From: Gammaproteobacteria bacterium
Lineage (GTDB): Bacteria; Pseudomonadota; Gammaproteobacteria; BMS3Bbin11
Assembly: GCA_013150915.1 (NCBI GenBank)
Contig: JAADJE010000084.1
Coordinates: 1-64,000 of the forward strand
Reading direction: 5' to 3'
Length of the DNA: 64,000 nucleotides
The notes below the pieces were generated by a model that was given only the letters and a program-made list of their open reading frames with translations, was not told where the DNA came from and made no database searches. Numbering within the stretch: the first letter of the stretch is position 1; each line of letters starts with the position of its first letter. Of this stretch, positions 21,387 to 39,207 are shown piece after piece. A program made the translations under genes and the position numbers.

Positions 21387-22085
21387 ATGCAGAAAAAAAT
21401 CCTGGTCATCGAAGACGAAGCCGCAATACTCGGCATGATAACCTTTACCCTGGAAAACGAAGACTTTCTGGTGGTCGGTGTTGAAAATGGCCAGGATGCC
21501 CAACAGGCCGTTGCAAAATCCATTCCTGACCTGATGCTGGTGGACTGGATGCTGCCTGGTATCAGTGGCCTGGAGTTGGTACGTGGGTTTCGTCGATCAG
21601 CGGCCACACGCACTGTCCCTATCATTATGTTGACCGCACGTAGCGAAGAAAATGACCGGATTGATGGCCTCGATTCCGGTGCCGATGATTATATTACGAA
21701 ACCTTTTTCTACACGTGAGTTGCTGTCACGTATCTCTGCTTTATTGCGGCGTGCAGAAGCCTTCGAGGGTTCTACACAGCCTCTACTGGCAGGAGAGATA
21801 AAACTTGACCCGCTGGCACATGAACTAACGATAGCAGGAAAACCGGTAAAGCCCGGCCCCACCGAGTACCGGCTGCTCTTTTTCCTCATGCAGCACCCCA
21901 ACCGTGTGTACTCACGGGGTCAGCTGCTGGATTATGTCTGGGGCGAAAACATCTACATTGAAGAAAGAACGGTGGATGTCCATATTTTGCGTCTGCGCAA
22001 ACTTCTTAAACGGTTCGCCGTTGATCATATGTTACAGACAGTTCGAGGTATCGGTTACCGTTTTAGTATTTCGGTTGGACAATGA
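21387..22085 (+). CDS. phoB: Phosphate regulon response regulator
   Basis: Receiver plus winged-helix DNA-binding domain (YSRGQLLDYVWGENIYIEERTVDVHI). Confidence 0.95.
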   Translation: MQKKILVIEDEAAILGMITFTLENEDFLVVGVENGQDAQQAVAKSIPDLMLVDWMLPGISGLELVRGFRRSAATRTVPIIMLTARSEENDRIDGLDSGADDYITKPFSTRELLSRISALLRRAEAFEGSTQPLLAGEIKLDPLAHELTIAGKPVKPGPTEYRLLFFLMQHPNRVYSRGQLLDYVWGENIYIEERTVDVHILRLRKLLKRFAVDHMLQTVRGIGYRFSISVGQ

Positions 22086-23398
22086 ACAAAAATTTATCCC
22101 TGGAGGCCTGGCGCCTGTTCTGGGTTCTTGTTGCCGGAATTATTGCTGGCTTGATGACATCACGGCTTTGGCCAACTATTGTCCTGGCTCTCCTGGCGTA
22201 CTGCATCTGGCAGATGAACCAGCTCTTCAGGCTCGATCGCTGGATACAGCAGGGCCTTAAGCGTTCACAAACACCGAATGCAGGGGGGTTACTGGAAAAT
22301 ATAATTTCCAATATCTACCGCCTTAAAACCAGCAGGAAGCGCGGTAAAAAACAGCTGGCCCTGTTACTGGGTCAATACAGAGCCTCTGCGGAAGCACTGC
22401 CTGATGCCACGGTTATCCTTACCAGCACCGGTGAAATCCAGTGGTTCAATGAAGCGGCCGAAATCTTGCTGCGCCTGCAGACACCGAGAGACTTGGGTCA
22501 ACGTATTGATAATCTGTTACGCGACCCCAAGTTTCGTAAATTCCTGCGAGCGACAAAACGGCAACAGGAACTACGCCTCACATCTCCGTTGGATAATGAA
22601 GTCATTTTATCCTGTCGCCTGATCAATTATGGCCAGGATAAGCTTTTACTGACAGTACGTGATGTCAGCATCCGCGAACAGCTCAATCGTGTCAGGCGTG
22701 AATTTGTTTCGAATGCTTCACATGAGCTACGTACTCCACTCACGGTGATTCGGGGTTATCTTGAGATGATGTCTGCCGACAACGGGGGGGAGGATGAGTT
22801 GCGAGACAAGATACACATCTTGCTTGAACAAACGGCACAGATGGAGAATATAATCAACGAAATGCTGACACTTTCCCGACTGGAAAGTTCTACGCTGGAA
22901 GCCAGCGAAGGAGAGGCCCTCAGCGTTGCACAAATATTACGGCAACTGGTATCGGATGCCGTTCGGTCCGGCAAAGCCGAGAGCGATCAAATCACAGTTA
23001 CTGTGGATGACAGCCTTTGTCTAATTGGCATACGGGCAGAGATAATGAGCCTTTGCAATAATCTTCTGTACAACGCTCTGCAGCACAATCCTGCGCAAAC
23101 ACCCATAGAGCTACAATGGTTCCGCAGTGGTTCCGATGCGCCATGCCTGGCCGTAAATGACGATGGTGAGGGCATTGAGCAGCAGCATCTGAGCCGCCTG
23201 ACGGAACGATTCTACCGTGTTGATTCCAGCCGCTCACGAGAATCCGGCGGCACCGGCCTGGGACTGGCCATCGTCAAACACATTGTTCAGCGCCATGGCG
23301 GGCATATTGATATTTCCAGTACGCCTACTGTCGGCTCATCCTTTACCTGCTGTTTTGCAACATCGCGGGCCGTTGAATGTGTCGGTGATGAAGTCTAA
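22082..23398 (+). CDS. phoR: Phosphate regulon sensor histidine kinase
   Basis: PAS domain, SHELRTPLTVIRGYLE H-box, GTGLGLAIVKHI. Confidence 0.95.
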   Translation: MNKNLSLEAWRLFWVLVAGIIAGLMTSRLWPTIVLALLAYCIWQMNQLFRLDRWIQQGLKRSQTPNAGGLLENIISNIYRLKTSRKRGKKQLALLLGQYRASAEALPDATVILTSTGEIQWFNEAAEILLRLQTPRDLGQRIDNLLRDPKFRKFLRATKRQQELRLTSPLDNEVILSCRLINYGQDKLLLTVRDVSIREQLNRVRREFVSNASHELRTPLTVIRGYLEMMSADNGGEDELRDKIHILLEQTAQMENIINEMLTLSRLESSTLEASEGEALSVAQILRQLVSDAVRSGKAESDQITVTVDDSLCLIGIRAEIMSLCNNLLYNALQHNPAQTPIELQWFRSGSDAPCLAVNDDGEGIEQQHLSRLTERFYRVDSSRSRESGGTGLGLAIVKHIVQRHGGHIDISSTPTVGSSFTCCFATSRAVECVGDEV

Positions 23399-23466
23399 TA
23401 ATCGCCACTATATAATCCGTAACACCCCTCTTGGGGCGACATTTACAGCGGCTGGTTGAATGGCCA

Positions 23467-23527
23467 TGCGATCCCCATGCCTTGTGATGACAGATTTTTA
23501 ATCACAATCTGACATATCCAGAATTAC
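23467..23527. mobile_element. MITE-like element, truncated remnant (copy D)
   Basis: gcgatccccatgccttgtgatgacagatttttaatcacaatctgacatatccag aligns with copy A gcgattcttgcctggatctgacagattttgaatcacaatctgattatccag. Confidence 0.6.
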
Positions 23528-23548
23528 CGGATATCCCAAAAAAAGGTT

Positions 23549-23566
23549 TTGTCATAATCCTGTAAC
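23549..23566 (+). promoter_or_regulatory. Candidate Pho box upstream of pstS
   Basis: TTGTCATAATCCTGTAAC, Pho-box half-sites at 11-bp spacing. Confidence 0.7.
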
Positions 23567-23689
23567 AATAGGTTTCTAGAATCTTGTCCAGTAACAGAGG
23601 CCCTGATGCTGAAGCTAAGGATTATTAAAGGTTCCCTTAACTCAGACCCGGCCTGATCATAAGTAAACTTAAACTTCGGGACAATCAAC

Positions 23690-24832
23690 ATGAAAAAATT
23701 TATTCTGCACAGCGTTGTCATTGTGGCCGCCATGGGTAGCATTAATACCGCCCATGCCATAGGCCGTGATACCATAAACATTGTCGGGTCTTCGACAGTG
23801 TATCCCTTTGCCACAGTTGTTGCTGAGCGTTTTGGACGTTCCAGTAATTTCAAAACACCCAAGATTGAATCAACCGGTTCCGGTGGTGGACTCAAGTTAT
23901 TCTGCAAAGGCGCAGGGGCCAACACACCGGATATTACCAATGCCTCACGCCGTATCAAGAAAAGTGAGTATGATAAATGCCAGAAGAATGGGGTCACCAG
24001 CATAACCGAAGTACTGGTCGGTTACGACGGTATCGTCATTGCAAACTCAAAAAAAGCAATTCGCTTAAACCTGACACGCAAGGACTTATACATGGCACTG
24101 GCCAAAATAGTGCCCGGTCCTGATGGTAAACTGATTCCCAACCCCAATACTACCTGGAAAGACGTCAACGCCAAGTTACCCGCGATAAAAATTGAAGTGC
24201 TCGGACCACCACCAACATCTGGAACCCGTGATGCCTTTGCTGAACTGGCTCTTGGCGGTGGTGCAAAAACGATTCCTGATCTCAAGGCATTGCGTGGCAT
24301 GAAGGCCTCTCAGGCTGATGAGATCAAAGCCATGATGACCAAACTGGGTATTCCGTTGACTGTTTATGACAGCATGAAGAAGAAAAAAGGCAAGGCGCCT
24401 AAGGGAAAGAAAATCTTCAAGGCGGTTGTCTATGCGGTACGCGAAGACGGTGCCTATATTGAGGCAGGCGAGAACGATAACCTTATCGTACAAAAACTGC
24501 AGACCAACCCAAATGCGCTGGGTATCTTCGGCTTCAGCTATCTAGAGGAAAATGCTGACAAGGTACAGGGGTCTATAATTGATGGTATTGAGCCAAGCTT
24601 TGATACAATCGCCAGTGGTGACTACCCGGTATCACGTCCGCTATACTTCTATATCAAGAATGCGCACGTGGGTAAAATCCCCGGTATTCTGGAATACGCC
24701 CTGGCATTCGCCTCAAAAAAGGCTATGGGCGAGGACGGTTACCTGCCCGAAAGAGGGCTAATCCCATTAAACAGTAATGAATTGCTACAAGTTCAGAAAA
24801 ACATAAAAAATCTTAAAGTACTGAAAATGTAG
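23690..24832 (+). CDS. pstS: Phosphate ABC transporter substrate-binding protein
   Basis: Signal peptide, IVGSSTVYPF, STGSGGG phosphate-binding motifs. Confidence 0.94.
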   Translation: MKKFILHSVVIVAAMGSINTAHAIGRDTINIVGSSTVYPFATVVAERFGRSSNFKTPKIESTGSGGGLKLFCKGAGANTPDITNASRRIKKSEYDKCQKNGVTSITEVLVGYDGIVIANSKKAIRLNLTRKDLYMALAKIVPGPDGKLIPNPNTTWKDVNAKLPAIKIEVLGPPPTSGTRDAFAELALGGGAKTIPDLKALRGMKASQADEIKAMMTKLGIPLTVYDSMKKKKGKAPKGKKIFKAVVYAVREDGAYIEAGENDNLIVQKLQTNPNALGIFGFSYLEENADKVQGSIIDGIEPSFDTIASGDYPVSRPLYFYIKNAHVGKIPGILEYALAFASKKAMGEDGYLPERGLIPLNSNELLQVQKNIKNLKVLKM

Positions 24833-24866
24833 TTATTTCCTGATTGTTGAGTCGTTTTTTATACGC

Positions 24867-26255
24867 ATGCAGACATCTACAATCTTTCTCGCACTGATCA
24901 TCCTAACGGTGATCAGTTTTGCGCTGGGATACAAACGTTCGCATGCTGTAGCAGCCGGGCACGGCGGCATCAAGTCGCTGCACTCTTTGCCCCGGCATTA
25001 CGGCTATATGACAGCACTGTGGGCCGGCTTGCCGGCCTTACTCATTCTACTCCTGTGGATGGGGTTTGAACAAAGGGTACTCCACAGCCTTGTGTTGGCC
25101 AGCCTGCCGGAAAGTGTGCAAAGCATGCAGGAAAGCCAGCTCGGGCTCTACTACAATCAAATCGTCAGTTTTGCCACTGGCAATATAGACAGTTCACAAC
25201 TCAATGCAGATCAAATTGGAGCCGCTTCCTATTTTAACTCATTGCTAGCTTCAGGCCGTATAATCAAGAGCGCCCTGGTCTTTGTCATAATCGTCTTTGG
25301 TGCAGGGTTGGCCATGCAGCGAATCAGGCCTTCATTCCGTGCCCGCAATAATGTTGAGAATATTTTCAAGTGGGTACTCTTCGCCTGTTCATTTATTGCG
25401 GTACTGACGACAGCCGGTATCGTCCTGTCTGTGTTATTTGAAGCCGTGCGTTTTTTTCAGGTTATTCCCCTTACAGACTTTCTGTTCGGGCTGGAATGGA
25501 GTCCACAGATGGCCATTCGTGCCGACCAGGTGGCAGCATCCGGTTCATTTGGCTTTGTGCCTTTGTTTGTCGGCACAATGCTGATTACCCTGGTTGCCAT
25601 GTTGATTGCCGTACCTGTCGGCCTGATGTCCGCCATCTATATGTCGGAATATGCCACTAAGCGTTTTCGCACTATAAGTAAACCGATGCTGGAAATACTG
25701 GCCGGGGTGCCCACAGTCGTTTATGGTTTCTTTGCCGCACTCACTGTGGCACCTTTTATCCGCAATTTGGGCGAGTCCTTTGGTCTCAACGTATCTTCCG
25801 AGAGTGCCCTGGCCGCCGGTCTGGTTATGGGAATCATGATTATTCCTTTCGTCATGTCATTGTCAGATGATATTATCACTGCAGTACCCGATGCCATGCG
25901 TGAAGCCTCGCTGGGCCTGGGCGCAACGATGAATGAGACGATACGAAAGGTCGTGTTGCCTGCTGCCCTACCGGGCATCATTGGGGGTATATTACTCGCT
26001 GTGTCACGCGCCATTGGCGAGACCATGATTGTTGTCATGGCCGCCGGGCTATCGGCAAAACTGACCATCAATCCGCTGGAGGCGGTGACCACGGTCACAG
26101 TACAAATCGTTACCCTGCTAGTTGGTGACCAGGAATTCGACAGTCCAAAAACACTGGCCGCCTTTGCCCTGGGTTTGTCGCTTTTCTTCGTGACGCTACT
26201 GCTCAACGTCATCGCCCTCTATGTGGTCAGAAAATACCGTGAGCAATATGAATAA
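24867..26255 (+). CDS. pstC: Phosphate ABC transporter permease
   Basis: EASLGLGATMNETIRKVVLPAALPGI EAA loop; multiple TMs. Confidence 0.94.
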   Translation: MQTSTIFLALIILTVISFALGYKRSHAVAAGHGGIKSLHSLPRHYGYMTALWAGLPALLILLLWMGFEQRVLHSLVLASLPESVQSMQESQLGLYYNQIVSFATGNIDSSQLNADQIGAASYFNSLLASGRIIKSALVFVIIVFGAGLAMQRIRPSFRARNNVENIFKWVLFACSFIAVLTTAGIVLSVLFEAVRFFQVIPLTDFLFGLEWSPQMAIRADQVAASGSFGFVPLFVGTMLITLVAMLIAVPVGLMSAIYMSEYATKRFRTISKPMLEILAGVPTVVYGFFAALTVAPFIRNLGESFGLNVSSESALAAGLVMGIMIIPFVMSLSDDIITAVPDAMREASLGLGATMNETIRKVVLPAALPGIIGGILLAVSRAIGETMIVVMAAGLSAKLTINPLEAVTTVTVQIVTLLVGDQEFDSPKTLAAFALGLSLFFVTLLLNVIALYVVRKYREQYE

Positions 26256-27558
26256 ACAGATAGACAGCAATACAGATAGAAGCACAAACCGGAATACCGC
26301 CGTAATAGCGGCATCATTAAAGAAGCGCTATGCGCGAGAGAAACGCTTCCAGTGGTATGGCCGGCTGGCTGTGTTAACAGGCTTTATCTTTTTGTTTCTG
26401 TTGCTTGCAGATATCGTCAGCAAAGGGACGCCTGCCTTTACTCAAAGCTTTATCAAGCTCTCCATTAATCTAGATCCTGAGAAGCTCGGCGTAGACGCTA
26501 ATTCAACGGAAAATGAATTACGGCAGGCGAATTATGCCGCGGTGATTAAACGCAGCTTGCGTAAAAAATTTCCTGAAGTCTCCGGACGAAAAGAGAAGCG
26601 CCGGCTATACCGACTAATTAGTATCGGGGCCGAATATAAGCTGCGTGATTATATTGTCGCCCACCCTGAGGATATCGGGAAGCGTAAAGAATTCTGGCTG
26701 CGGGCACATTCCGAGGCAGACAGTTACCTGAAGGGGCAGGTGGATAAAAACACCCCGGAAGCTGACCGGCGTGTAAAAGACAATCAAGTAAACTGGCTAA
26801 ATCAGCTACACAAAGAAGGCCTTACCGATACTCGCTTCAACACCACATTCTTTACTGCCGGCGATTCCCGTGAGCCTGAACTGGCGGGGATAAAAGCCGC
26901 CTTGTTTGGATCCTTCTTCACCCTGTCGGTTACCTTTCTGCTTTCTTTCCCGATCGGTGTCTTTGCCGCAATTTATTTACAGGAATTTGCACCACGCAAC
27001 CGCCTCACCGATCTAATTGAAATAAATATCAATAATCTGGCCGCCGTGCCTTCCATCGTTTTTGGTCTACTGGGGCTGGCTGTTTTCATCAATTTTTTTG
27101 GGCTGCCGCGCTCTGCGCCGCTGGTTGGTGGTATCGTGCTGGCGCTGATAACATTACCAACTATCATCATTACATCGCGCACCGCGATTCAGGCCGTTTC
27201 ACCTTCCATCCGTGAGGCCGCCCTCGCCATAGGTGCGTCAAAGTTACAGACCATATTTCACCATGTCCTGCCAGTCGCCATGCCCGGTATTTTTACCGGG
27301 GCGATAATTGGTATGGCCCAGGCACTGGGTGAATCCGCGCCTTTGCTAATGATCGGCATGGTCGCCTTTATCATGGATGTACCTGGCAGCATAATGGACT
27401 CGTCGACAGTACTGCCAATACAGGTTTATTTGTGGGCCGACAACCCAGAACACGGGTTTATGGAAAAGACCTCGGCAGCCATTATGGTACTGCTACTCTT
27501 TTTGATCATAATGAATGCGCTTGCTATTTATCTGCGTAAACGCTTCGAATTAAAATAG
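26248..27558 (+). CDS. pstA: Phosphate ABC transporter permease with large N-terminal periplasmic segment (start chosen at MNKQIDSN)
   Basis: [29 protein letters not shown] loop. Confidence 0.93.
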
Positions 27559-27569
27559 GGTCTGATAAG

Positions 27570-28514
27570 ATGCAGACGGTAACAATGATAAAGGACAATT
27601 CCGCAGTGACTGACAAGAACACAACTGACGAGGGTACGCTTGCATATGTCACTGCAAACAAGCCTGTAAACGAAACGCTGCAGGGCCTGCGTGAATTTGA
27701 TATCCACGAGTCGGGGGATAACGAAAAACATGAGACAGTCGGTCAGCCTTTCATCGACAATGCCAGGATTTCTGCGCGTAATGTCAATGTCTACTATGGT
27801 GATAAACAGGCTATTATAGATGTATCACTGGACATCGCTGGGAATCAGATTATTGCCATGATTGGCCCCTCAGGCTGTGGTAAATCCACCTTTTTACGGA
27901 CCATCAACCGGATGAATGACATCATTCCCGGCTGCCGCTTTGAAGGTAATATCAAGCTTGACGGTGAGGATATTTATGATACAGAAATGGATATCGTACT
28001 GCTGCGTGCACGTGTCGGCATGGTATTCCAGAAACCGAATCCGTTTCCAAAGTCAATCTTTGAAAATGTAGCATACGGGCCGCGCATCCATGGCCTGGCG
28101 CACAATAAGGCCGAACTGGATGACATCGTCGAAAAGAGTCTGCGTCGTGCCAGCCTGTTTGATGAAGTGAAAGATCAGCTGGATAAACCGGGCACCGGTC
28201 TGTCAGGCGGCCAGCAACAACGCCTGTGCATCGCACGTGCCATAGCGGTCAGCCCCGAGGTTATACTGATGGACGAACCCTGCTCAGCACTGGATCCGAT
28301 CGCCACCGCACGCATTGAAGAGCTGATGGATGAGTTAAAGGAGAAATACACCATAGTTATCGTCACCCATTCCATGCAGCAGGCCGCTCGCGTGTCGCAG
28401 CGTACGGCCTATTTCCATCTCGGAAAGCTGATGGAGGTCGGTAATACACGAGAGATATTCACCACGCCCAAGCACCAGATGACGGAAAATTATATTACCG
28501 GACGATTCGGTTAG
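27570..28514 (+). CDS. pstB: Phosphate ABC transporter ATP-binding protein
   Basis: GPSGCGKST Walker [17 protein letters not shown] signature. Confidence 0.95.
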
Positions 28515-28529
28515 GCTAAGGAAAATACC

Positions 28530-29240
28530 ATGGAAAACCTGCAAATTGATCAACATATTTCAAGAAAATATAATGAAGAACTCGAAGAATTGCGCAGTAA
28601 AGTTATGACCATGGGCGGTATGGTTGAGAAACAGTGTAAGAATGCATTACAGGCCCTGATCAAGGGCGACAGCAGCCTGGCAGAAACAGTCGCCACATCG
28701 GACTATCTGATTAATGGCCTGGAAGTCGAAATCGATGCGGAATGCACTAATATTCTTGCTCGTAGACAGCCTGCTGCCAGTGATTTACGTATGATTCTGA
28801 CCGTTATCAAAACCATATCGGATCTTGAACGGATTGGTGATGAAGCAGAAAAGATTGGTCGTTTCGCTCTAAAACTGGCCAATAGTCAGGAGCCTCAATC
28901 CTATTATTCAGACTTACTGCACCTGGGTGAACATGTCATCGAGATGCTACACGGTGCGCTCGATGCCTTTGCCCGTATGGACGTGGAGGCTGCAGTCAGA
29001 GTGGCGGGGCGTGACCCCGAGATCGATCAGGAATTTGAGTCGCTTACCCGTATGCTCATTACCCACATGATGGAAGACTCTCGTGAGGTAAAAAATGTAT
29101 TGCGCCTGAACTGGTGCGCACGCTCACTGGAGCGAATCGGTGATCACTCTACCAATATCTGTGAATACGTGATCTATCTGGTGAAGGGGCATGATGTACG
29201 ACATGTCAGTCTGGAGCAGATACAGCAACAGTATAGTTAG
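28530..29240 (+). CDS. phoU: Phosphate signalling protein PhoU
   Basis: Two PhoU repeats; RIGDEAEKI and RIGDHSTNI. Confidence 0.95.
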   Translation: MENLQIDQHISRKYNEELEELRSKVMTMGGMVEKQCKNALQALIKGDSSLAETVATSDYLINGLEVEIDAECTNILARRQPAASDLRMILTVIKTISDLERIGDEAEKIGRFALKLANSQEPQSYYSDLLHLGEHVIEMLHGALDAFARMDVEAAVRVAGRDPEIDQEFESLTRMLITHMMEDSREVKNVLRLNWCARSLERIGDHSTNICEYVIYLVKGHDVRHVSLEQIQQQYS

Positions 29241-29405: not shown

Positions 29406-30389
29406 CTAGAGATAGCCTTCGCTCCGATACCATTCAGCCGTTTTGGCCAGACCTTCATCAAGACCCACTTTTGGCTCATATCCCAGCTCTTTTTTGGCCC
29501 GGGTTATGTCAAAGGCGCGGTTCTGCCGATACCAGTCGACTCGCCTGGGAAATATTGGCGGTGTAATTTTGAACGGTTTGCATACTTTTTCGAATATGTG
29601 CCCTGCAACAATAAGGGGCCATAGAGGGAAATACTGAATTTTTACATCCACACCCAGGGCATTGCCGACTCTTCTGACCAGATCATTAATGGAAACATAT
29701 TCTTCATCACCAATGAGGAATGTCTGACCATCACCCTTGCCTGGCTCCATAGCCAGCATATGTGCATCCACAAGGTTTTCCACATAGAGAGGGTGATACA
29801 GGGTTTTACCGCTACCGAACATCGGAAATCGACCATTGTTCACGCGTTTAAAAATCATATAAAAACGTTCCGGATCCCCAGGCCCATAGATGGCGGTGGG
29901 TCTTAATACGACTGTTTTGAGCCCCCTGTTTGCAAACTCATACACCACCGGCTCAGCCGCATATTTGGTCTGTTGATAGTAGTCCGCTGCATTGATGGGC
30001 GCATCTTCATTTGCAGGTGGATTTTCAACATCACCGTGTACCCCACAGGTACTGCAGTAAATAAATTTACTCACCCCCTGTTTTTCGGCGGCCTCCAGAA
30101 CATTTCGAGTTCCACCAACATTGATTTCATCATAATAGCTATTAGGTACATTGAGCTCCCTGAATGCCGCTGCCAGATGCTGAACCACATCGACCCCCTG
30201 CATGCATTTTTCGACCACATCCTTATCCACCACACTGCCAATAACCACATCGGCCCCCATATTGCGGAGCTCATCGGTCGCCAGTCCCTCCTTATAATCA
30301 AGTGCTACGACCTCATGGCCTTCATTAATCAGGCGCCTGACCAACGCTTTGCCCGTAAACCCCGTCCCACCAGTAACCAATATTTTCAT
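29406..30389 (-). CDS. NAD-dependent epimerase/dehydratase (extended SDR)
   Basis: TGGTGFTGKALVRRL Rossmann motif, YYQQTKYAAE YxxxK catalytic motif. Confidence 0.92.
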   Translation of the reverse strand: MKILVTGGTGFTGKALVRRLINEGHEVVALDYKEGLATDELRNMGADVVIGSVVDKDVVEKCMQGVDVVQHLAAAFRELNVPNSYYDEINVGGTRNVLEAAEKQGVSKFIYCSTCGVHGDVENPPANEDAPINAADYYQQTKYAAEPVVYEFANRGLKTVVLRPTAIYGPGDPERFYMIFKRVNNGRFPMFGSGKTLYHPLYVENLVDAHMLAMEPGKGDGQTFLIGDEEYVSINDLVRRVGNALGVDVKIQYFPLWPLIVAGHIFEKVCKPFKITPPIFPRRVDWYRQNRAFDITRAKKELGYEPKVGLDEGLAKTAEWYRSEGYL

Positions 30390-30670: not shown

Positions 30671-32617
30671 ATGAACGTAGTGATATTTTCTGGAGGACGT
30701 GGTTCAACAGTGCTATCGAAGCGACTGGTCAGGCAACCGGGGCTTTCGCTAACGGTGTTGATCAATGGTTACGATGACGGCGCATCAACGGGTGAGGTCC
30801 GCCGTTTTCTGGGGGATTGCCTGGGGCCCTCGGATTTCCGTAAGAATGCTTCCCGCTTCGCCAGCGAACTGAATACCTGCGAGTGCGCGCTGATAGACTT
30901 ATTTGATCTGCGCCTCCCCATGGGGCTGTCTGATCAGGATGGTATAAGCACCGTCAAACTGCTGGTAGCGCAGCACATCGATAAATTGCCCCCTGCGGTT
31001 AATGCTGTCAGATCTGTGGCACAACGGTTGAGTGCGGAAACACTGGCAAGGGTTGCGGACAGGCTGGGACACTTTCTCTCAATAGTCAAATCAGGTGGCT
31101 TTGCATTTGCTGATTGTGCCATTGGCAACCTGGTATTTGCAGGTTGTTATCTGTCAGAAGGGCGAAATTTTAACCGAGCAGTCAATAATTATTGTGGCCT
31201 CATGGGCCTGCCTGATGGATTGATCGTTAATGTTACCAATGGTGAAAATCTCTTCCTGGTAGCACTGGACAGGAGCAACCATTTCCTTGCCAGTGAAGAA
31301 GCCATTGTTGATTCGGCCCGAAAAAATCATATTGAAGATATCTACCTGATTGCTCACCCCATCGGGGAATCAGAAAAGACCTTATTGGAAAAAATGGACA
31401 AAGTGGCCGTTATGGAATGGTTGCAGCAACGCTCCATTGCCCCAGTAGCGAATCCGGCTGCGCTGGAGGTGCTGGAAAGGGCTGATCTGATTATTTATTC
31501 TCCCGGTACACAGCACTCAAGTCTTTACCCCTCCTACATGACCCCTAAAATTGGTCTTGCAATCACGGCCAACTTCAAGGCGATCAAGCTATTGATCACC
31601 AACATCTACGAAGATGCAGAGATTACGAACTATCAGGCCGTTGATATCGCCGATCGTGCTCGGTTCTATCTGCGCGAAAAAGACAGGAGGGATTATCCAG
31701 ATCCACTGCTGGTGACACATTCGCTGATCAATTACCCGGACCAGGCCCGAAGCAGTACTGCTCATATTGCACCCGGTGACCTCGGCCTGATTGATGACCC
31801 ACGTGCTATTCGTATTGGGGAATACGAAGATGCTTCTTCTGGATTTCATGATGCAGATAAAGCGCTGACGCCATTTATCAATACTATCTTCCGCCAGAGG
31901 CAGAGCCTGAAATTGGCGGTTTTGATGCAGGAAGCGATATCTGCCGATAAAATCACCCAGAGTGTGTTGCAAATGCTCCGTCATGGCACAGCGGAACAAC
32001 TGCAGAAGATAGACCTCCTCAGCGAATTGGAATCGCCCTTGCCGAGCTCATTGCAAGAGCGCCTGCCTTTCCAGACTATTCATGTTCTGCCTGAGGATAT
32101 CCAGCAATTCCTGTCAGAATCAGATTATGACTATGTCGTACTTTTTGAATCCTCCGGGATGTATCACGGCGGTGATATCATGAAGCTGATTAGTGTCCTT
32201 GAATCCAGTGACCTGGATGCAGTGTGGGGAAGTCGGAGGCTGTCAGTAAATGATATTCATGATTCCTACCGTCTACGTTTCCAGCATCGGCACATTATTG
32301 GTGCAATCAGTTATCTTGGCAGCCATTTACTCAGCCTGGTCTATCTGTTTTTATTCGGCCGCTACATCTCCGATTCGTTGTCGGGGGTACGCGTAATCCG
32401 TAAAAACCTGTTGGTAGAGATCCCCTTTAATCAGGAACCAACGATTTATAACCAGCAATTGCTCTCCGGTATCTTAAGAAAAAGAGGTGAAGTACTGGAA
32501 ATGCCCGTACGTTTTTTTTCCCAGTCTCCGAAAAAGGTCAAGCGGACGACGATAATAGACGGACTGAAAGCTCTAGGGGTAATCCTGAAGAATCGCCTGT
32601 TTGGCCAACACGGATGA
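30671..32617 (+). CDS. CofD/YvcK-like (2-phospho-L-lactate-transferase-like) protein fused to a C-terminal GT2-like region
   Basis: N-term FSGGRGSTVLSKRL, GNLVFAG, ADLIIYSPGTQHSSLYPS; C-term WGSRRL...YISDSLSGVRVIRKNLL resembles the C-terminal half of DPM-type glycosyltransferases. Confidence 0.75.
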   Translation: MNVVIFSGGRGSTVLSKRLVRQPGLSLTVLINGYDDGASTGEVRRFLGDCLGPSDFRKNASRFASELNTCECALIDLFDLRLPMGLSDQDGISTVKLLVAQHIDKLPPAVNAVRSVAQRLSAETLARVADRLGHFLSIVKSGGFAFADCAIGNLVFAGCYLSEGRNFNRAVNNYCGLMGLPDGLIVNVTNGENLFLVALDRSNHFLASEEAIVDSARKNHIEDIYLIAHPIGESEKTLLEKMDKVAVMEWLQQRSIAPVANPAALEVLERADLIIYSPGTQHSSLYPSYMTPKIGLAITANFKAIKLLITNIYEDAEITNYQAVDIADRARFYLREKDRRDYPDPLLVTHSLINYPDQARSSTAHIAPGDLGLIDDPRAIRIGEYEDASSGFHDADKALTPFINTIFRQRQSLKLAVLMQEAISADKITQSVLQMLRHGTAEQLQKIDLLSELESPLPSSLQERLPFQTIHVLPEDIQQFLSESDYDYVVLFESSGMYHGGDIMKLISVLESSDLDAVWGSRRLSVNDIHDSYRLRFQHRHIIGAISYLGSHLLSLVYLFLFGRYISDSLSGVRVIRKNLLVEIPFNQEPTIYNQQLLSGILRKRGEVLEMPVRFFSQSPKKVKRTTIIDGLKALGVILKNRLFGQHG

Positions 32618-33270
32618 TTTCACTTCAGCCCCCTATTGAATACCTTATATTCGACCTGGACGGCGTGTTAATCGACTCATCCCCCTGCCATCGGGCGGCC
32701 TATCAGAAACTCTGGGATAAACTTGGAATCCACGGGCCAAAATATAGCAGTATTGCCGGTAAAAGGACGGCTGATGTTGTTTCAGCCATCACTCAGTCTC
32801 TGGCGCCCACAGAAACAGAAATCAACGAATGGGTGATATTCAAGCAGAAAATGGCGCGACAGGAGATGGAACACGACCTTAAGGTTTGTTCGGGTGCAGT
32901 GGAGATCATTAATAGACTTCATGCTGAGGGTTGGCGCATGTCTGTCGCAACGGGGGCATCACGGACATCCGCACTTCTGGCGCTAGGAAGCCTGGGCCTT
33001 ACGGCGTGTTTCGACTTTATTGTAACGGCCGATGAAGTGATCCAGGGCAAACCCGACCCTTTGGTGTTTAATGAAGTACTGAGAGGATCCAGGGTTCCTG
33101 CGGAAAAAGCCCTGGTCCTGGAAGACAGTCAATCGGGTGTAGACGCTGCTATAGCGGCGGGCATTCGGGTCTGTACGGTTCACACTGGCGTGCGTTCAGA
33201 TGCTGACTTGTTCATGGGCGCCTACGCTAATTTGAATGAAGGGTTGATCGAGCTGGGGGTATTTCAGTGA
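32614..33270 (+). CDS. HAD-superfamily hydrolase (beta-phosphoglucomutase-like)
   Basis: FDLDGVLIDSSPCHRAAY, ATGASR, GKPDPLVF, VLEDSQSGVDAA. Confidence 0.9.
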   Translation: MISLQPPIEYLIFDLDGVLIDSSPCHRAAYQKLWDKLGIHGPKYSSIAGKRTADVVSAITQSLAPTETEINEWVIFKQKMARQEMEHDLKVCSGAVEIINRLHAEGWRMSVATGASRTSALLALGSLGLTACFDFIVTADEVIQGKPDPLVFNEVLRGSRVPAEKALVLEDSQSGVDAAIAAGIRVCTVHTGVRSDADLFMGAYANLNEGLIELGVFQ

Positions 33271-34010
33271 AGATACTGATCGTTCCAGCGGCAGGGCGTG
33301 GGTCGCGTCTGGGTTACGATAAGCCGAAGTTTCTCTATCCATTATGTGGCAAACCCTTGATTGATCATGTGCTGAATTTACACTGTCGTTTTGTTGATGA
33401 GGCCGTGGTTGTGGTGAGTGGTGATGCGTTTGAACTGGCGCAGGAATATTTCAGAAACGCAGAATTGCCCATCAGGCTCGTCGTTCAGGATAAGCCTACC
33501 GGTATGCTGGATGCAATTCTTGAGGCCGGGAAAGCCGTGCGCAAAATCCATCCCGATAGAATATGGATTACATGGTGTGATCAAATCGCCATACAAACTG
33601 AGACCCTGGACCGTATGAAGGGGCTTGAGGAGAAAAGCGATCCGGCCATGATTGTTCCGATAATCCGGAAGACATCACCTTATATTCATTTTGATATGGA
33701 TGATAAAGGACAGATATGTCGTGTCCTGCAACGTCGAGAAGGGGATGAGATGCCGGATGTCGGCAATAATGACATGGGACTATTTTCCCTGTCGCTCACC
33801 GCTTTTCAGCAGCTGGAAAATGATTTTTCATCCTCCCCGGAAATCGGTGGAGCAACCGGAGAGCGTAATTTTCTACCCTTTATTCCCTGGCTTGCCGGGC
33901 GGGAAAGGGTGATGCTAATGAGGGGAACGGACGAAATGGAGACTGTCGGTGTCAACACTCCTGATGATGTATGCCGGCTAGCGCAACAGTTATGTGGTGA
34001 GAATTACTAA
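33267..34010 (+). CDS. Sugar nucleotidyltransferase-like protein
   Basis: IVPAAGRGSRLGYDKPKFLYPLCGKPLIDHV signature; overlaps the HAD gene. Confidence 0.88.
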   Translation: MKILIVPAAGRGSRLGYDKPKFLYPLCGKPLIDHVLNLHCRFVDEAVVVVSGDAFELAQEYFRNAELPIRLVVQDKPTGMLDAILEAGKAVRKIHPDRIWITWCDQIAIQTETLDRMKGLEEKSDPAMIVPIIRKTSPYIHFDMDDKGQICRVLQRREGDEMPDVGNNDMGLFSLSLTAFQQLENDFSSSPEIGGATGERNFLPFIPWLAGRERVMLMRGTDEMETVGVNTPDDVCRLAQQLCGENY

Positions 34011-34044: not shown

Positions 34045-36084
34045 TCAACAACCCGTCTGGCCTTTACACGGGGTGCCAAATTCTAACTGACTCATTCTCC
34101 ACAGTCTCCCTTTCCTCGGGACAACGATCTCTATTTTTATCGCATCAAGCTGGACAGGTTCAAACCAGAAAGTCTGGTGCATACCGCCGTAGACCGGGTG
34201 TTTTTTTCGGAACCGGACCCTGTCAAAATGCTGCACCCTCTTGTCTACAATAACTGTCCAGGAGTCCCCTCTTCGACCGAGTATTCTGATTGACCTGGCG
34301 GTCTCGTCGGGAAGGTCTGGATAGATAAAGGGATAAACCAGTGTCACCCGCTGGACGGTACGCAGGGGTTTAAACTCTGCCTGTAACCACATGCCCGCCT
34401 TCTGCTCAGAGCCACTACTCCAGGAACTGCGCACATTACCGTCACCGAGGTTTTCCAGGCCCGACCCCTGAGTGCTGCTGTTTAGCGAATAGGCCCGGCT
34501 GGAAATTCGGGTATCCACATCGCCCTGTTTATGGTGAAAATCCTCGTAGGTATAGAATGGCCCAACATTCCACCTCGAATAGGAGATATTCTGTTCTTTC
34601 ATGTGCCGCTCAAATGCGGTAATGGGTAACCTTGTATCGTAGCCGTGTGTGAGGACATAGCGGGCGTTTGGTGATTTATCGACAACATCCTTGTATGGAA
34701 TCGGCCAGCCGAGAAAGCGCTCATTGTAGGGTGGTGCACATACAATTTTCTCATCCGTTCGAAAGATTATTCGATACCCCAGCCAGAACGAGGCATAACA
34801 ACGGTCAATGCCTTTCTTCTTCAGCGCCTCGATTAAGGGAATGATTCCGGGTGTTTTTGCTATCTCCCCTGCAAACTGTGGTGTACGCCAGGAACGTATT
34901 ACCTCTATAGAGCTTGCTATATTGAACAGCCCCAGGCCCACGGCGACCGTACCCACAACATAGCGTAATTTTCTCCCGGCAATTGAAAAGGCATAGCCAA
35001 ACAAAAAGGGAAAGAAGATTACCGGAACCAGCAGATACCTGTACGACTCCGGACCCGCACGCTCACTGAAGGCAAACAGGACAATGGCAATGAGACTGGA
35101 GCCCAGAAAGAAATCCTGGGTATCAAGATAAGGCCAACGACCCTGTTTAACATGGCGAACAAACCGGATCAGTCTATGAAAAAATACAACAAGGACCAGT
35201 AGCGAATAAGCGACGGCAAAAATATTCCTCAATAGGGGTAATTGCCCCAGGTGGGCGGTAAAATCGGGAAACAGCACCGGGTTGACGCCCATCGCGCCAG
35301 GCAGTACCTGACTGAGAGCTGGGTCCCACAGACGCTGGATCACTTCAAGGATTGGTCGGGTTTTTGAGACGGCTTCCTGTGCGTGGGGGTAGAGCACAAT
35401 AGAAAGAATAAAGGGGACAAGTCCTATCAATGCCCCAAACAGAAAGCTGCCCGTACGCTTCGCAGCATCCACCAGACTTCGACCCAGCAGTATCAAAATA
35501 AAAGCGGGAAGTATGTAGGAAATTGCCAGCATGTGTACGCTAAAGGCCGTCCCGGCTACGATTCCGATAACCAGGAACAGACGGTAAGCTTGAGAGGAAT
35601 TGAAAGACGCGGCCAACAGATAAGAGGTTACCCAGGCAAAGGTAATACTGGTCGCATAATTTGGTGGCACATATCCCGACTGGAGGATCAGGAAGTAGGC
35701 AGAGGGGAAAAGAACCAGGAGAAACGCCGGCCATTGGCTGTCTTTGGGCAGGACCTTTTTAACGAGGAAAAAAAATCCGCCCAGGGAGAGCAGGCCAAGG
35801 AACAAGGTTAGATAGCGGGCACCGACAACGTTTCTGGGCATCCACTCCACCAGGGGCGCCATTAAATAACCCTCTATCGGGAACAGATAGGGTGTTCCAC
35901 TGATCAATAGCGGCCACTCGCCTCGGGCCACCTGCTTGGCGATCAAAACGGTCAGGGCCTCGTCTCCGGTAACAGGCAGGTGGGTGATGCTGGTCCAGAT
36001 AAAGAATACGCGCAGGCCCAGTGCCATCAACAAAACCGCGCCGAAGACGAGAATTACAGATCGCTTTTCAGATAAAAAACGCAT
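34045..36084 (-). CDS. GT-C (GT39/PMT-like) membrane glycosyltransferase with C-terminal discoidin-like domain
   Basis: Many TMs with early LPVTGDEA acidic loop motif; C-term SSGSEQKAGMWLQAEFKPLRTVQRVTLVYP resembles F5/8 type C. Confidence 0.72.
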   Translation of the reverse strand: MRFLSEKRSVILVFGAVLLMALGLRVFFIWTSITHLPVTGDEALTVLIAKQVARGEWPLLISGTPYLFPIEGYLMAPLVEWMPRNVVGARYLTLFLGLLSLGGFFFLVKKVLPKDSQWPAFLLVLFPSAYFLILQSGYVPPNYATSITFAWVTSYLLAASFNSSQAYRLFLVIGIVAGTAFSVHMLAISYILPAFILILLGRSLVDAAKRTGSFLFGALIGLVPFILSIVLYPHAQEAVSKTRPILEVIQRLWDPALSQVLPGAMGVNPVLFPDFTAHLGQLPLLRNIFAVAYSLLVLVVFFHRLIRFVRHVKQGRWPYLDTQDFFLGSSLIAIVLFAFSERAGPESYRYLLVPVIFFPFLFGYAFSIAGRKLRYVVGTVAVGLGLFNIASSIEVIRSWRTPQFAGEIAKTPGIIPLIEALKKKGIDRCYASFWLGYRIIFRTDEKIVCAPPYNERFLGWPIPYKDVVDKSPNARYVLTHGYDTRLPITAFERHMKEQNISYSRWNVGPFYTYEDFHHKQGDVDTRISSRAYSLNSSTQGSGLENLGDGNVRSSWSSGSEQKAGMWLQAEFKPLRTVQRVTLVYPFIYPDLPDETARSIRILGRRGDSWTVIVDKRVQHFDRVRFRKKHPVYGGMHQTFWFEPVQLDAIKIEIVVPRKGRLWRMSQLEFGTPCKGQTGC

Positions 36085-36104: not shown

Positions 36105-36893
36105 TCAGGGAAGTCTACGGAATCTGAACCTGAGAAAGGTGATCAAGGCAATAAAAAAGTCCGTGGCCTTTATCTTTTTTCCATCTTCTACACTCCTGGG
36201 ATAGTAGTGGATCGGCAGCTCTATGATTTTGATATTGCTCCTGACCAGGAAGGTCGTCAATTCATGATCTGTCTCAAATCCGCTGGTTACGATCTTATAT
36301 GAGCGAATCAACTTACCGGGATAAAGTTTATAGGCCGTTAAGGTATCGGTAATCCACTTACCCAGTAGCATAAAGGCAAAGACCGTAAGCACGCGGTTGG
36401 CAAACCAGTTGACGAACTTCTGATCCCTGTGCTTGCTCTTGATGAGCTTTCCCTCCGGAGAGAACACACACTGGCCTAGCAGGCGGCTACCATAAATGGA
36501 CGTGTGCTCAGGGTCATGGCTCGCCGCCTCAATCATAGGAATGTAGTCGTTTGGCTCATACTCAAGATCCGCGTCCTGCACCAGCACCCAGTCGCCTGTA
36601 GAAACCGATATCCCCCGCTTGACCGCTGAACCCTTTCCACGGTTTTCCGGCTGCAGGTAATAGGACACATTCTTGTGTTGTTTGACTATCTCACCGGTTC
36701 GATCGCTGGAACAGTCGTCAACGACAATCACTTCCTTATTCACTCCGACAGATTCCAGATCCACCCGGCCAATCTTCTCCAACAGCGTTCCAATAGAGGC
36801 TTCTTCATTATAGGCAGGAATGACTATAGAAAGTATTCTCATGGTGTCTTTCTGCTCAGTGATAAGAAAATCCGTCTGACACAACCCCTGCAC
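36105..36893 (-). CDS. Family 2 glycosyltransferase, dolichol-phosphate-mannose-synthase-like (start may be MRILSIVIPAYNEE)
   Basis: IPAYNEEASIGTLL, VDDCSSDRTGE, VQDADLEYEPNDY, ITDTLTAYKLYP. Confidence 0.93.
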   Translation of the reverse strand: MQGLCQTDFLITEQKDTMRILSIVIPAYNEEASIGTLLEKIGRVDLESVGVNKEVIVVDDCSSDRTGEIVKQHKNVSYYLQPENRGKGSAVKRGISVSTGDWVLVQDADLEYEPNDYIPMIEAASHDPEHTSIYGSRLLGQCVFSPEGKLIKSKHRDQKFVNWFANRVLTVFAFMLLGKWITDTLTAYKLYPGKLIRSYKIVTSGFETDHELTTFLVRSNIKIIELPIHYYPRSVEDGKKIKATDFFIALITFLRFRFRRLP

Positions 36894-36999: not shown

Positions 37000-39207
37000 C
37001 TAGAACCTGAGTCCAACTGTCGTAAACACGGACAGTCCTTTCCCAATATAACTGGTATTTTCCGGGGTATCGCGATAGGTCAACGTCGTGCCGACCTGGG
37101 TACGACGGTTCAGATTCATCCTATAAAAGGCTTCAAAATCGATTTCCCTGCCCTCTGGGGCAAGCGAAACACGTGTTCGGCTATTAATAACATTGCGCTG
37201 ACTGTCGAGTGACTGTGGCACAAGGAGATCAGCACTGCCGTTGCTAATACGCAGAGGGCTGGACACAGCGAATCCTGCACGGTCATTATAACGGAACAGG
37301 CTCTTGCCGATTATCCCGGTTCCCCATGAATAGCTTCTTAACGTTGTAAAACTCTGCAGGAATGAGCCTCGCTGCTGCTTTACGCCGGTAAATCCTTCGG
37401 TAAAGCTACCAAACAGGGAAAATTTATCAAATATTCGGTACTGCCCGGTCAGGCCAATTGCAGTGGTGTTGGCATTCGCGACACTGAAGGCGCCACTCGA
37501 CGCGCCACCAAGCAGGTTCCCGTCTTCAAAAAGGTTGTTTACACGTAATGAAACACTCATTTTTTCAGTTGGGGAATAACTGCCCTGCAGCATCACCGCC
37601 TCACTGCTTAGTCTGTTTTGCTTATTATTATTTAGACGATTGGCGCCAAACTGGAACGAAAGTTTTTTACTGGCCTTATAGCCCATGCTGACATTATCGG
37701 AACGATTGCCGAAACCCATATACTGTAAGCCATATGAGCTGGCCCAGATAAAGTTCTCACTTAATGATAAATTCCCGACCTTATCGAACCCGCTTGAAGG
37801 CGTATAGTTATGCTGAAGATTGAATGAAAAACCACTGTTAAAACTTCCCGCCACTTTCATTGAAAGATCGCGGTCCCTTACCTCATCGTAGTTCTCAAGG
37901 AAAGGATCTGAATCCTTCAAAAAAACATAATCTGCCGGGTTAGTCGCCCGTGTGTGTAGAGACATTGAAAGATTATCAGACATGATGACATCTACAGTAC
38001 GTGTCTGACGATCAAACATATTCATAACATTGAACAATGTTGGTGCGCTGTTTTGTACATTTAAGGTCTGGTTCAAATTCATGATATACGGACGGTTGTA
38101 CTTATCAAAAACCAGTGTCTTTTCAAGGTCTTTTTCTGCTTTTTTATTCTCGCTCCAGAAATATGCCAGCCCACCACCAACAGCCAGGGCGGCTATTCCT
38201 ACGCCCAGTCCGCCGCTGGAGCCACTTGAGGATGCTCCAACACCGCCCTGTGCTGCAAGTGCCGCACCGACGTTCAACATGCCGTGCCCGTAGATCGCAT
38301 CAACACCCGGCGCGCCAAGATCCGTAGCACTGTTAAACAGAATTTCCACCACCTGCTGGCTAGTAAGCTCAGGGTTTTGTGCCAGTATCAATGCTGCCGC
38401 ACCGGCCACATGTGGTGTTGCAACGGATGTGCCTGTCCAGGTTACATAGCTCGTATTGCCACGATTACCCGGCGCATAAATACTCAGGCCCGGCGCCACC
38501 ATATAGACAGCTGCAGCACCGCCCGCACGATTTGACATATCAAGAAGGGTGTTATTTTGTCCTGTTCCGCCCACAATGATGCCACCCCCATTAAACTGGC
38601 CATAGACTGAGGGAGGAATATCCGGGTTTGCCTGACTGTCATTTCCAGCTCTAATTATCACGAGCTTCCCGGCTTTTGTGGCATTTATGATTGCGCTATT
38701 CTGAGGCTCGGAAAAAATGGTGCCTGCGGTAAATGTGATTACACGCACATCACTGCGGGCAGCGGCCCGGTTAAATCCTGCTGCCGCGGCATCTGAACCG
38801 GCAAAGCGGTTTGAATCTGTGACACGTATCGGCAGGATTGATGCATCATAAGCGACACCGATAATACCCTGGCCATTAAAATTCGAGGCGATAATTCCCG
38901 CGACAGATGTGCCATGGCCACCACCCGTATCCACATCACCGACATCACCCCCTGCAGCTATTCTCCCAAGCAACTCAACGTGAGTAACATTCACCCCAGA
39001 GTCCAGCGTAGCAATGGTAATCCCACTGCCTGTTGTATTGCTCCAGGCGGGAAACACGTTAACGAAACGGAGACCGTATTGCTTGAGGAATTCCTCCGAA
39101 GCGGGATCAGGTAATGCCTGTGCCAGTGCGCGACCGGATAAAGTAAGCAAACAGGCCATAAAAATTACCCTGGAGGGAGCAGATTTAAACGTCATAGAAC
39201 ACACCAT
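37000..39207 (-). CDS. S8 subtilisin-like serine protease with C-terminal outer-membrane beta-barrel (autotransporter-like)
   Basis: Signal peptide; TLDSG (Asp), GHGTSVAGI (His), GTSVATPHVAGAAA (Ser); terminal strand ending VGLRF. Confidence 0.88.
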   Translation of the reverse strand: MVCSMTFKSAPSRVIFMACLLTLSGRALAQALPDPASEEFLKQYGLRFVNVFPAWSNTTGSGITIATLDSGVNVTHVELLGRIAAGGDVGDVDTGGGHGTSVAGIIASNFNGQGIIGVAYDASILPIRVTDSNRFAGSDAAAAGFNRAAARSDVRVITFTAGTIFSEPQNSAIINATKAGKLVIIRAGNDSQANPDIPPSVYGQFNGGGIIVGGTGQNNTLLDMSNRAGGAAAVYMVAPGLSIYAPGNRGNTSYVTWTGTSVATPHVAGAAALILAQNPELTSQQVVEILFNSATDLGAPGVDAIYGHGMLNVGAALAAQGGVGASSSGSSGGLGVGIAALAVGGGLAYFWSENKKAEKDLEKTLVFDKYNRPYIMNLNQTLNVQNSAPTLFNVMNMFDRQTRTVDVIMSDNLSMSLHTRATNPADYVFLKDSDPFLENYDEVRDRDLSMKVAGSFNSGFSFNLQHNYTPSSGFDKVGNLSLSENFIWASSYGLQYMGFGNRSDNVSMGYKASKKLSFQFGANRLNNNKQNRLSSEAVMLQGSYSPTEKMSVSLRVNNLFEDGNLLGGASSGAFSVANANTTAIGLTGQYRIFDKFSLFGSFTEGFTGVKQQRGSFLQSFTTLRSYSWGTGIIGKSLFRYNDRAGFAVSSPLRISNGSADLLVPQSLDSQRNVINSRTRVSLAPEGREIDFEAFYRMNLNRRTQVGTTLTYRDTPENTSYIGKGLSVFTTVGLRF

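Follow-up and report, generated by a model that had tools for sequence, protein, structure and literature searches.

A conserved two-domain fusion of a CofD/YvcK-like domain and a DPMS-type pseudo-glycosyltransferase, found in a module with a nucleotidyltransferase and an active GT2

The fusion gene and its surroundings

The window we have studied is a stretch of 64,000 nt from a Gammaproteobacteria bacterium (assembly GCA_013150915.1, contig JAADJE010000084.1, positions 1–64,000). It contains a gene with a single open frame, which is a real gene and a genuine fusion of two domains: a domain of the CofD/YvcK superfamily is followed by a glycosyltransferase (GT) fold. The features of the locus are given in Table 1. 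The genes of the fusion, the HAD phosphatase and the nucleotidyltransferase (NTase) overlap end to end, with the start of the NTase (33267) inside the stop of the HAD gene.

Table 1. Features of the fusion gene and of the genes which accompany it
Feature	Position	Strand	Remarks
CofD/YvcK-like domain + DPMS-type pseudo-glycosyltransferase fusion	30671..32617	+	single open frame, 648 aa
CofD/YvcK-superfamily domain, residues 1 to ~405	30671..31885	+	Pfam CofD, Foldseek, YvcK alignment (boundary)
Predicted metal/nucleotide loop D35-D36 + D55 (YDDG...GPSD)	30773..30835	+	invariance in 13 sequences, YvcK alignment
DPMS/ArnC-type GT-A pseudo-glycosyltransferase domain, residues ~411-645	31901..32605	+	AF2, Foldseek, hhalign
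FESSGMY (492-498), in place of the QDADLEY metal/donor motif of the paralogous GT2	32144..32164	+	
WGSRR (519-523), GSR arginine kept	32225..32239	+	counterpart of PfDPMS Arg117
HAD phosphatase, beta-PGM type	32614..33270	+	start overlaps fusion stop; optional member, 7/27 loci
MobA/GlmU-type nucleotidyltransferase (NTase)	33267..34010	+	catalytic residues conserved; obligate module member
Polytopic GT-C-like membrane protein, C-terminal F5/8-type-C-like domain	34045..36084	-	both Pfam matches below cut-off
Intact DPMS-like GT2 (QDADLEY, DDCSSD, GKG, FETDHE)	36105..36893	-	pseudo-GT paralogue; module member

Directly upstream there is a phosphate regulon (21387–29240, forward strand): a PhoB-like regulator, PhoR, a phosphate-binding protein and PhoU are recognised by Pfam, and between these matches lie ABC permeases and a PstB-like ATPase, identified by sequence. 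An NAD-dependent epimerase/3beta-HSD-type dehydrogenase (29406–30389, reverse strand) diverges from the fusion; it has the same position in genome G002 and weaker relatives near loci L070, L096 and L104. On the other side an S8-like serine protease (37000–39207, reverse strand) has a repetitive C-terminus resembling an outer-membrane barrel, as in autotransporters; its only relative, a weak one, is found in L013. No RNA element was detected in the window by Rfam, and the promoter and terminator scans of the window did no better than on shuffled sequences.

The CofD/YvcK-like domain

Pfam CofD (PF01933) matches residues 3–354 with an E-value of 1.4e-18 and 67.6 bits (cut-off 30), and all 13 fusion homologues match the same model, each with E < 0.01 (best 3e-20). 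The fusion is the sole PF01933 member in its own genome. No library model covers it as a whole above cut-off: Pfam CofD, which covers the N-terminal domain alone, is the one match above cut-off, while the NCBIfam matches are all below it (GAK-CofD 6e-17, YvcK 7e-14 and, at residues 478–638, AglJ 9.6e-6). The full-length AlphaFold2 model, built from the alignment of 13 sequences, is of moderate quality (pLDDT 70.5); Foldseek separates its two halves, and the N-terminal one finds UPF0052/YvcK (2ppv, 1.6e-9) and CofD (3c3e, 5e-5). A preliminary description, made from the sequence of the window, had placed about 350 aa in this superfamily. The identity is borne out; the domain is longer and runs to about residue 405, since a GxHxxxK motif near 391–397 aligns with the C-terminal RHxxxK of YvcK.

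The family has a clear signature: GGRG...INGYDDGxSTG...GPSDFRKN...PGTQHSSLFPSY. The aspartates D35, D36 and D55 occur in every one of the 13 sequences. Aligned through YvcK, D35/D36 and D55 are the counterparts of D45 and D57, the metal ligands of FbiA (PMC7253369). D35/D36 also align with D40/D41 of Listeria GlmR, in which the triple mutant D40A/D41A/N198A lowers uridyltransferase activity about 100-fold (PMC10128056); N198 is replaced by S288 in the fusion. YvcK binds UDP-sugars through T13, N217, Y264 and R300 in B. halodurans numbering (PMC5482804). Among these contacts N217, which touches the nucleotide, has a conserved counterpart, N311. T13 is replaced by R10 in the fusion, and no confident counterpart emerged for Y264. 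The probable equivalent of the arginine (R301 in YvcK) is residue 392, and this position varies: the window has F and most homologues have R, others having H, Q, T or V. The aspartate loop is also present in YvcK, for which the role of a regulator binding UDP-sugars is described, so its conservation is no proof of a transferase chemistry.

The pseudo-glycosyltransferase domain

The preliminary description took the C-terminal part for the second half of a DPM-type GT2, with about 180 aa and no nucleotide-binding half. The type is right, as it is apparent from AglJ, Foldseek and hhalign, and the motifs ESSGMY, WGSRRL and ISDSLSGVRVIRK are indeed present in the sequence. The extent is not: in the predicted structure this part has about 235 aa and a complete GT-A topology with interface helices. 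The N-terminal Rossmann half is there (strands 413–419, 445–451, 468–471 and 488–492), stripped of its motifs. A model of the GT half with the paralogues in the alignment reaches pLDDT 82.9 and pTM 0.80. Its Foldseek matches over about 250 columns are ArnC (2.8e-8) and the Pyrococcus DPMS 5mlz (1.1e-7, 19% identity); the C-terminal half of the full-length model gives ArnC (7e-6) and GtrB (2e-5). When the pseudo-GT profile is compared by hhalign with that of the neighbouring active GT2s, the probability is 98.4% (E 5e-15).

The 13 fusion copies have all lost the same residues relative to the GT2s which occur with them: the NEE glutamate, both DDxSxD aspartates, GKG, the metal aspartate and the glutamate of QDADLEY (DAD becomes ESS), the FELDHE block and the A-loop arginine. 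All 13 have kept others: the arginine of G-S-R, the aspartate of DT(L/V) (D568), E-x-P (E610 and P612) and the lysine/arginine pair of the A-loop (K/R624 and R625). The GSR arginine, R522, is invariant in the 13 fusions and also in the 11 co-occurring GT2s. The motif which replaces the metal site is itself conserved: [ED]SS[GA]MY is found in essentially all fusion homologues, one copy having ESSGRY. The metal ligands of PfDPMS are D91 and Q93; its GSR arginine, R117, binds the Dol-P phosphate together with S135 and R131, and R202 shuts the A-loop over the donor (PMC5526996). Our correspondence with these residues is a reading of shared motifs rather than a residue-level structural superposition. 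By the roles of these residues the domain has no donor pocket left, and its acceptor-phosphate site remains at least in part. The domain should thus be read as conserved but donor-dead. The putative recognition of a lipid carrier, proposed in the preliminary description for the CofD-like fold coupled to this domain, would fit the retained arginine and the interface-helix region, with the donor/metal site lost.

A conserved three-gene module

The fusion, the NTase and the DPMS-like GT2 form a conserved module of three genes. An NTase is near the fusion in all 27 loci examined, and an active GT2 orthologous to 36105–36893 in about 25 of them. In the class of genome G059, which is Vicinamibacteria judging by the titles of the relatives found, 19 of 193 sampled genomes have the fusion and 19 have the NTase, with 18 in common; in the two exceptions, G301 and G327, we are dealing with fragments at contig ends. 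The hypergeometric probability of this co-occurrence is 4e-23, a value not corrected for shared ancestry. The GT2 orthologues follow the genomes with fusion and NTase, with a clear drop in score elsewhere.

In locus L106 the order is GT2, GT-C, fusion, HAD and NTase, all on one strand, which links the two opposite-strand genes of the window (34045–36084 and 36105–36893) to the module. The GT-C neighbour is conserved as a type only, not as one family. The scores of L106:6363–12676 (genome G578) against the window are uneven: 504 bits for the GT2, 1292 bits for the GT-C protein and 580 of 1443 bits for the fusion. The far greater closeness of GT2 and GT-C suggests that the two halves of the module have been exchanged separately.

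The NTase has invariant G10, G12, R14, L15, K21, D105 and N230, and a nearly invariant Q74. We take these to correspond residue by residue to GlmU, with its GxGxRL..PK motif and including the metal asparagine; the GlmU residues are K25/Q76/D105 (PMC10128056). The protein matches GlmU structures in the PDB. Its best family is also GlmU (7e-17, far below cut-off), and this match points to no particular substrate. In our search of the open-access literature we found no description of the fusion or of the module.

Distribution and evolution

Homologues of the fusion are found in Vicinamibacteria (Acidobacteriota) and in a few Gammaproteobacteria. A scan of GTDB genomes gave 16 loci: by their titles, 12 in Acidobacteria/Vicinamibacteria/Luteitalea, three in Gammaproteobacteria and one in an unspecified bacterium. 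In the class of the window the fusion is present in 3 of 321 sampled genomes, the window included, and only one other sampled genome of the same genus carries it. A tree of the GT half only, rooted at its midpoint, suggests that the fusion was transferred horizontally, because the window and the other gammaproteobacterial copies branch from within the remaining sequences. No fusion was found among the viral contigs scanned; the plasmid search yielded standalone CofD-family relatives only and no fusion.

More than 20 genomes carry an intact fusion. When the window gene is compared with a relative of the same genus, to which it is 88% identical, dN/dS is 0.16 overall; the GT half has 0.17 and the core of the GT 0.07, by a simple Nei-Gojobori count on this one pair of genes. 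The purifying selection indicates that the pseudo-GT is maintained; with the conserved ESS motif, it shows that "degenerate", the word used in the preliminary description, does not suit this domain. A broken reading frame, a frameshift or a chance overlap is ruled out by the intact copies and the overall dN/dS.

Locus L070 has the architecture of the fusion and the same neighbours, with 31% identity overall and 37% in the CofD half. Its GT2 half is near-canonical: it has DGGSTDRS, GRG, PGDNEY, LETE and PRT..GKK. This sequence suggests that the GT was functional when the fusion arose and lost its donor site later, with the CofD loops kept; the CofD part would have been retained while GT activity was dispensable. 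In the tree the GT half of L070 falls among active GT2s, so it may also have been gained independently. In L014:7947–11942 the reading frame of the fusion does not end after the GT domain and goes on into a membrane protein; this added part has about 690 aa, about 12 predicted TM segments and a weak DUF6541 match. Two other copies, L015:5169–7054 and L016:1093–3004, are split between two frames and lack a piece of the GT region: this may be either real fission or an assembly error in the MAGs.

Possible functions

We tentatively consider the fusion as a component of a lipid-linked glycan pathway, in which a CofD transferase is coupled to a pseudo-GT acceptor platform. The NTase would convert X-phosphate and NTP to NDP-X; from the binding of NDP-X onwards the steps are those we infer. 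The CofD-like domain would bind NDP-X by way of a Mg2+ ion coordinated by D35/D36 and D55; as in CofD chemistry, it would then transfer phospho-X to an acceptor with release of NMP. The donor-dead GT domain would bind the acceptor and dock to the membrane, presenting a polyprenyl-phosphate or a polyprenyl-P-sugar, the latter probably made by the partner GT2. Steps before and after the fusion would fall to the optional HAD phosphatase and the nearby GT-C membrane transferases. This mechanism draws on the CofD/YvcK matches, the invariant aspartates, the acceptor residues kept, the co-occurrence of NTase and GT2 and a pairing similar to that of CofC/CofD; the operon of L106, the architecture of L070 and the membrane fusion of L014 add support. 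Against it are the presence of the aspartate loop in the regulator YvcK, the variability of residue 392, the change of N198 to S288, the possible independent origin of L070 and the GT-C neighbour conserved as a type only.

Nearly as likely as the transferase mechanism is a regulatory subunit. The CofD/YvcK-like domain would sense NDP-sugars and the pseudo-GT would form hetero-oligomers with the paralogous GT2, tuning the synthesis of lipid-linked sugar to the NDP-sugar pool. Descent from the same ancestor as a co-occurring active enzyme is the usual setting for pseudo-enzyme partners, and GtrB, among the closest folds, has been solved as a tetramer and an octamer; furthermore the PDB sequence matches are YvcK chains only, and YvcK binds UDP-sugars (PMC5482804). 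However, a pure dimerisation partner does not need the acceptor-site residues which are kept, and the UDP-GlcNAc contact R301 of YvcK is apparently not conserved. L070 also argues against regulation: its near-canonical GT half lies beside the same partner GT2, so that the fusion may once have held a second functional GT.

It is improbable that the CofD-like domain is an accessory nucleotidyltransferase which makes an NDP-sugar, as in Listeria GlmR, and passes it to the GT machinery. The aspartates altered in the GlmR triple mutant are D35/D36 here (PMC10128056), but N198 has become S288, and such an activity would be redundant because a dedicated NTase with conserved catalytic residues always adjoins the fusion. 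We give similarly little weight to an active, metal-independent glycosyltransferase working with the surface formed by FESSGMY, WGSRRLS and YISDTLSG. FESSGMY is conserved to the degree expected of a catalytic motif, and the mutants D89A/D91A of PfDPMS retain some residual activity (PMC5526996); yet the loss goes beyond the metal ligands to the entire donor pocket, as the metal aspartate and glutamate, the base-binding aspartate, GKG, FELDHE and the A-loop arginine have disappeared jointly in the 13 copies. A decaying fusion or an assembly artefact with no function is hardly credible: the homologues in L015 and L016 are broken in their GT part, but the number of intact genomes, the low dN/dS, above all in the GT core, and the conservation of motifs all speak against it.

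A stronger form of the transferase mechanism is rather unlikely: a new class of phospho-sugar transferases for lipid carriers, with the reaction NDP-X + acceptor giving phospho-X-acceptor + NMP by means of a donor-dead DPMS domain to which polyprenyl-phosphate or polyprenyl-P-sugar is bound. If true, it would make polyprenyl-diphospho-X or phosphodiester-decorated lipid-linked glycans, by a route independent of the known phosphoglycosyl transferases of WecA and PglC type.

What the bacterial members of the CofD/YvcK superfamily do is disputed: they have been seen as sensors of UDP-sugars, as accessory uridyltransferases or as phospho-X transferases. The module described here ties the superfamily to one nucleotidyltransferase and one GT for lipid-linked sugars, which makes its ligand and its chemistry directly testable. 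It also provides a conserved pseudo-glycosyltransferase of DPMS type, and L070 appears to be its near-canonical relative, with an equal architecture.

Comparison with known systems

CofD/FbiA (PF01933), a 2-phospho-L-lactate or PEP transferase of F420 synthesis, resembles the fusion in fold, Pfam score and metal-ligand aspartates. The genetic pairing with a MobA-type nucleotidyltransferase also recalls CofC/CofD. However, the sequence is nearer to those of YvcK and GAK-CofD than to that of CofD, the domain is joined to a GT fold, and its setting is one of glycosyltransferases rather than an evident F420 context. YvcK/GlmR (UPF0052, TIGR01826), the only family with PDB sequence matches to the fusion, has in common with it the DDG...P-x-D-x-R loop, GN, PG[ST]..[TS]S and N311. 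It differs in having no GT domain, in its motifs (GGTG becomes GGRG, PGDxRN becomes PSDFRKN and PGSLYTS..PN becomes PGTQHSS..PS) and in score, 51.9 bits against a TIGR01826 cut-off of 196. The GAK-system CofD (TIGR04357) gives the best NCBIfam E-value (6e-17) and matches all 13 copies (best 5e-28), but with 62 bits the fusion is far from its cut-off of 340, and this model has no GT domain either. An ordinary YvcK or GAK-CofD is therefore ruled out by the curated cut-offs.

A standalone CofD-family protein of the Acaryochloris plasmid pREC4 (WP_261892555.1, locus L113) shares GPSDLRKN and PGTQFSSLFPTYLT with the fusion. It has 365 aa and no GT domain, and no NTase or GT is annotated within 8 kb, in a gene table which is incomplete. 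Since it has GPSDxRKN and PGTQxSSLFPxYLT, this subtype of CofD also exists without a GT domain. The second half of the fusion has the GT-A topology, the interface helices, the GSR arginine, DT(L/V) and E-x-P of DPMS/ArnC/GtrB and of the archaeal AglJ. It differs from these enzymes by the loss of DxD, DDxSxD, GKG, the FELDHE block and the A-loop arginine.
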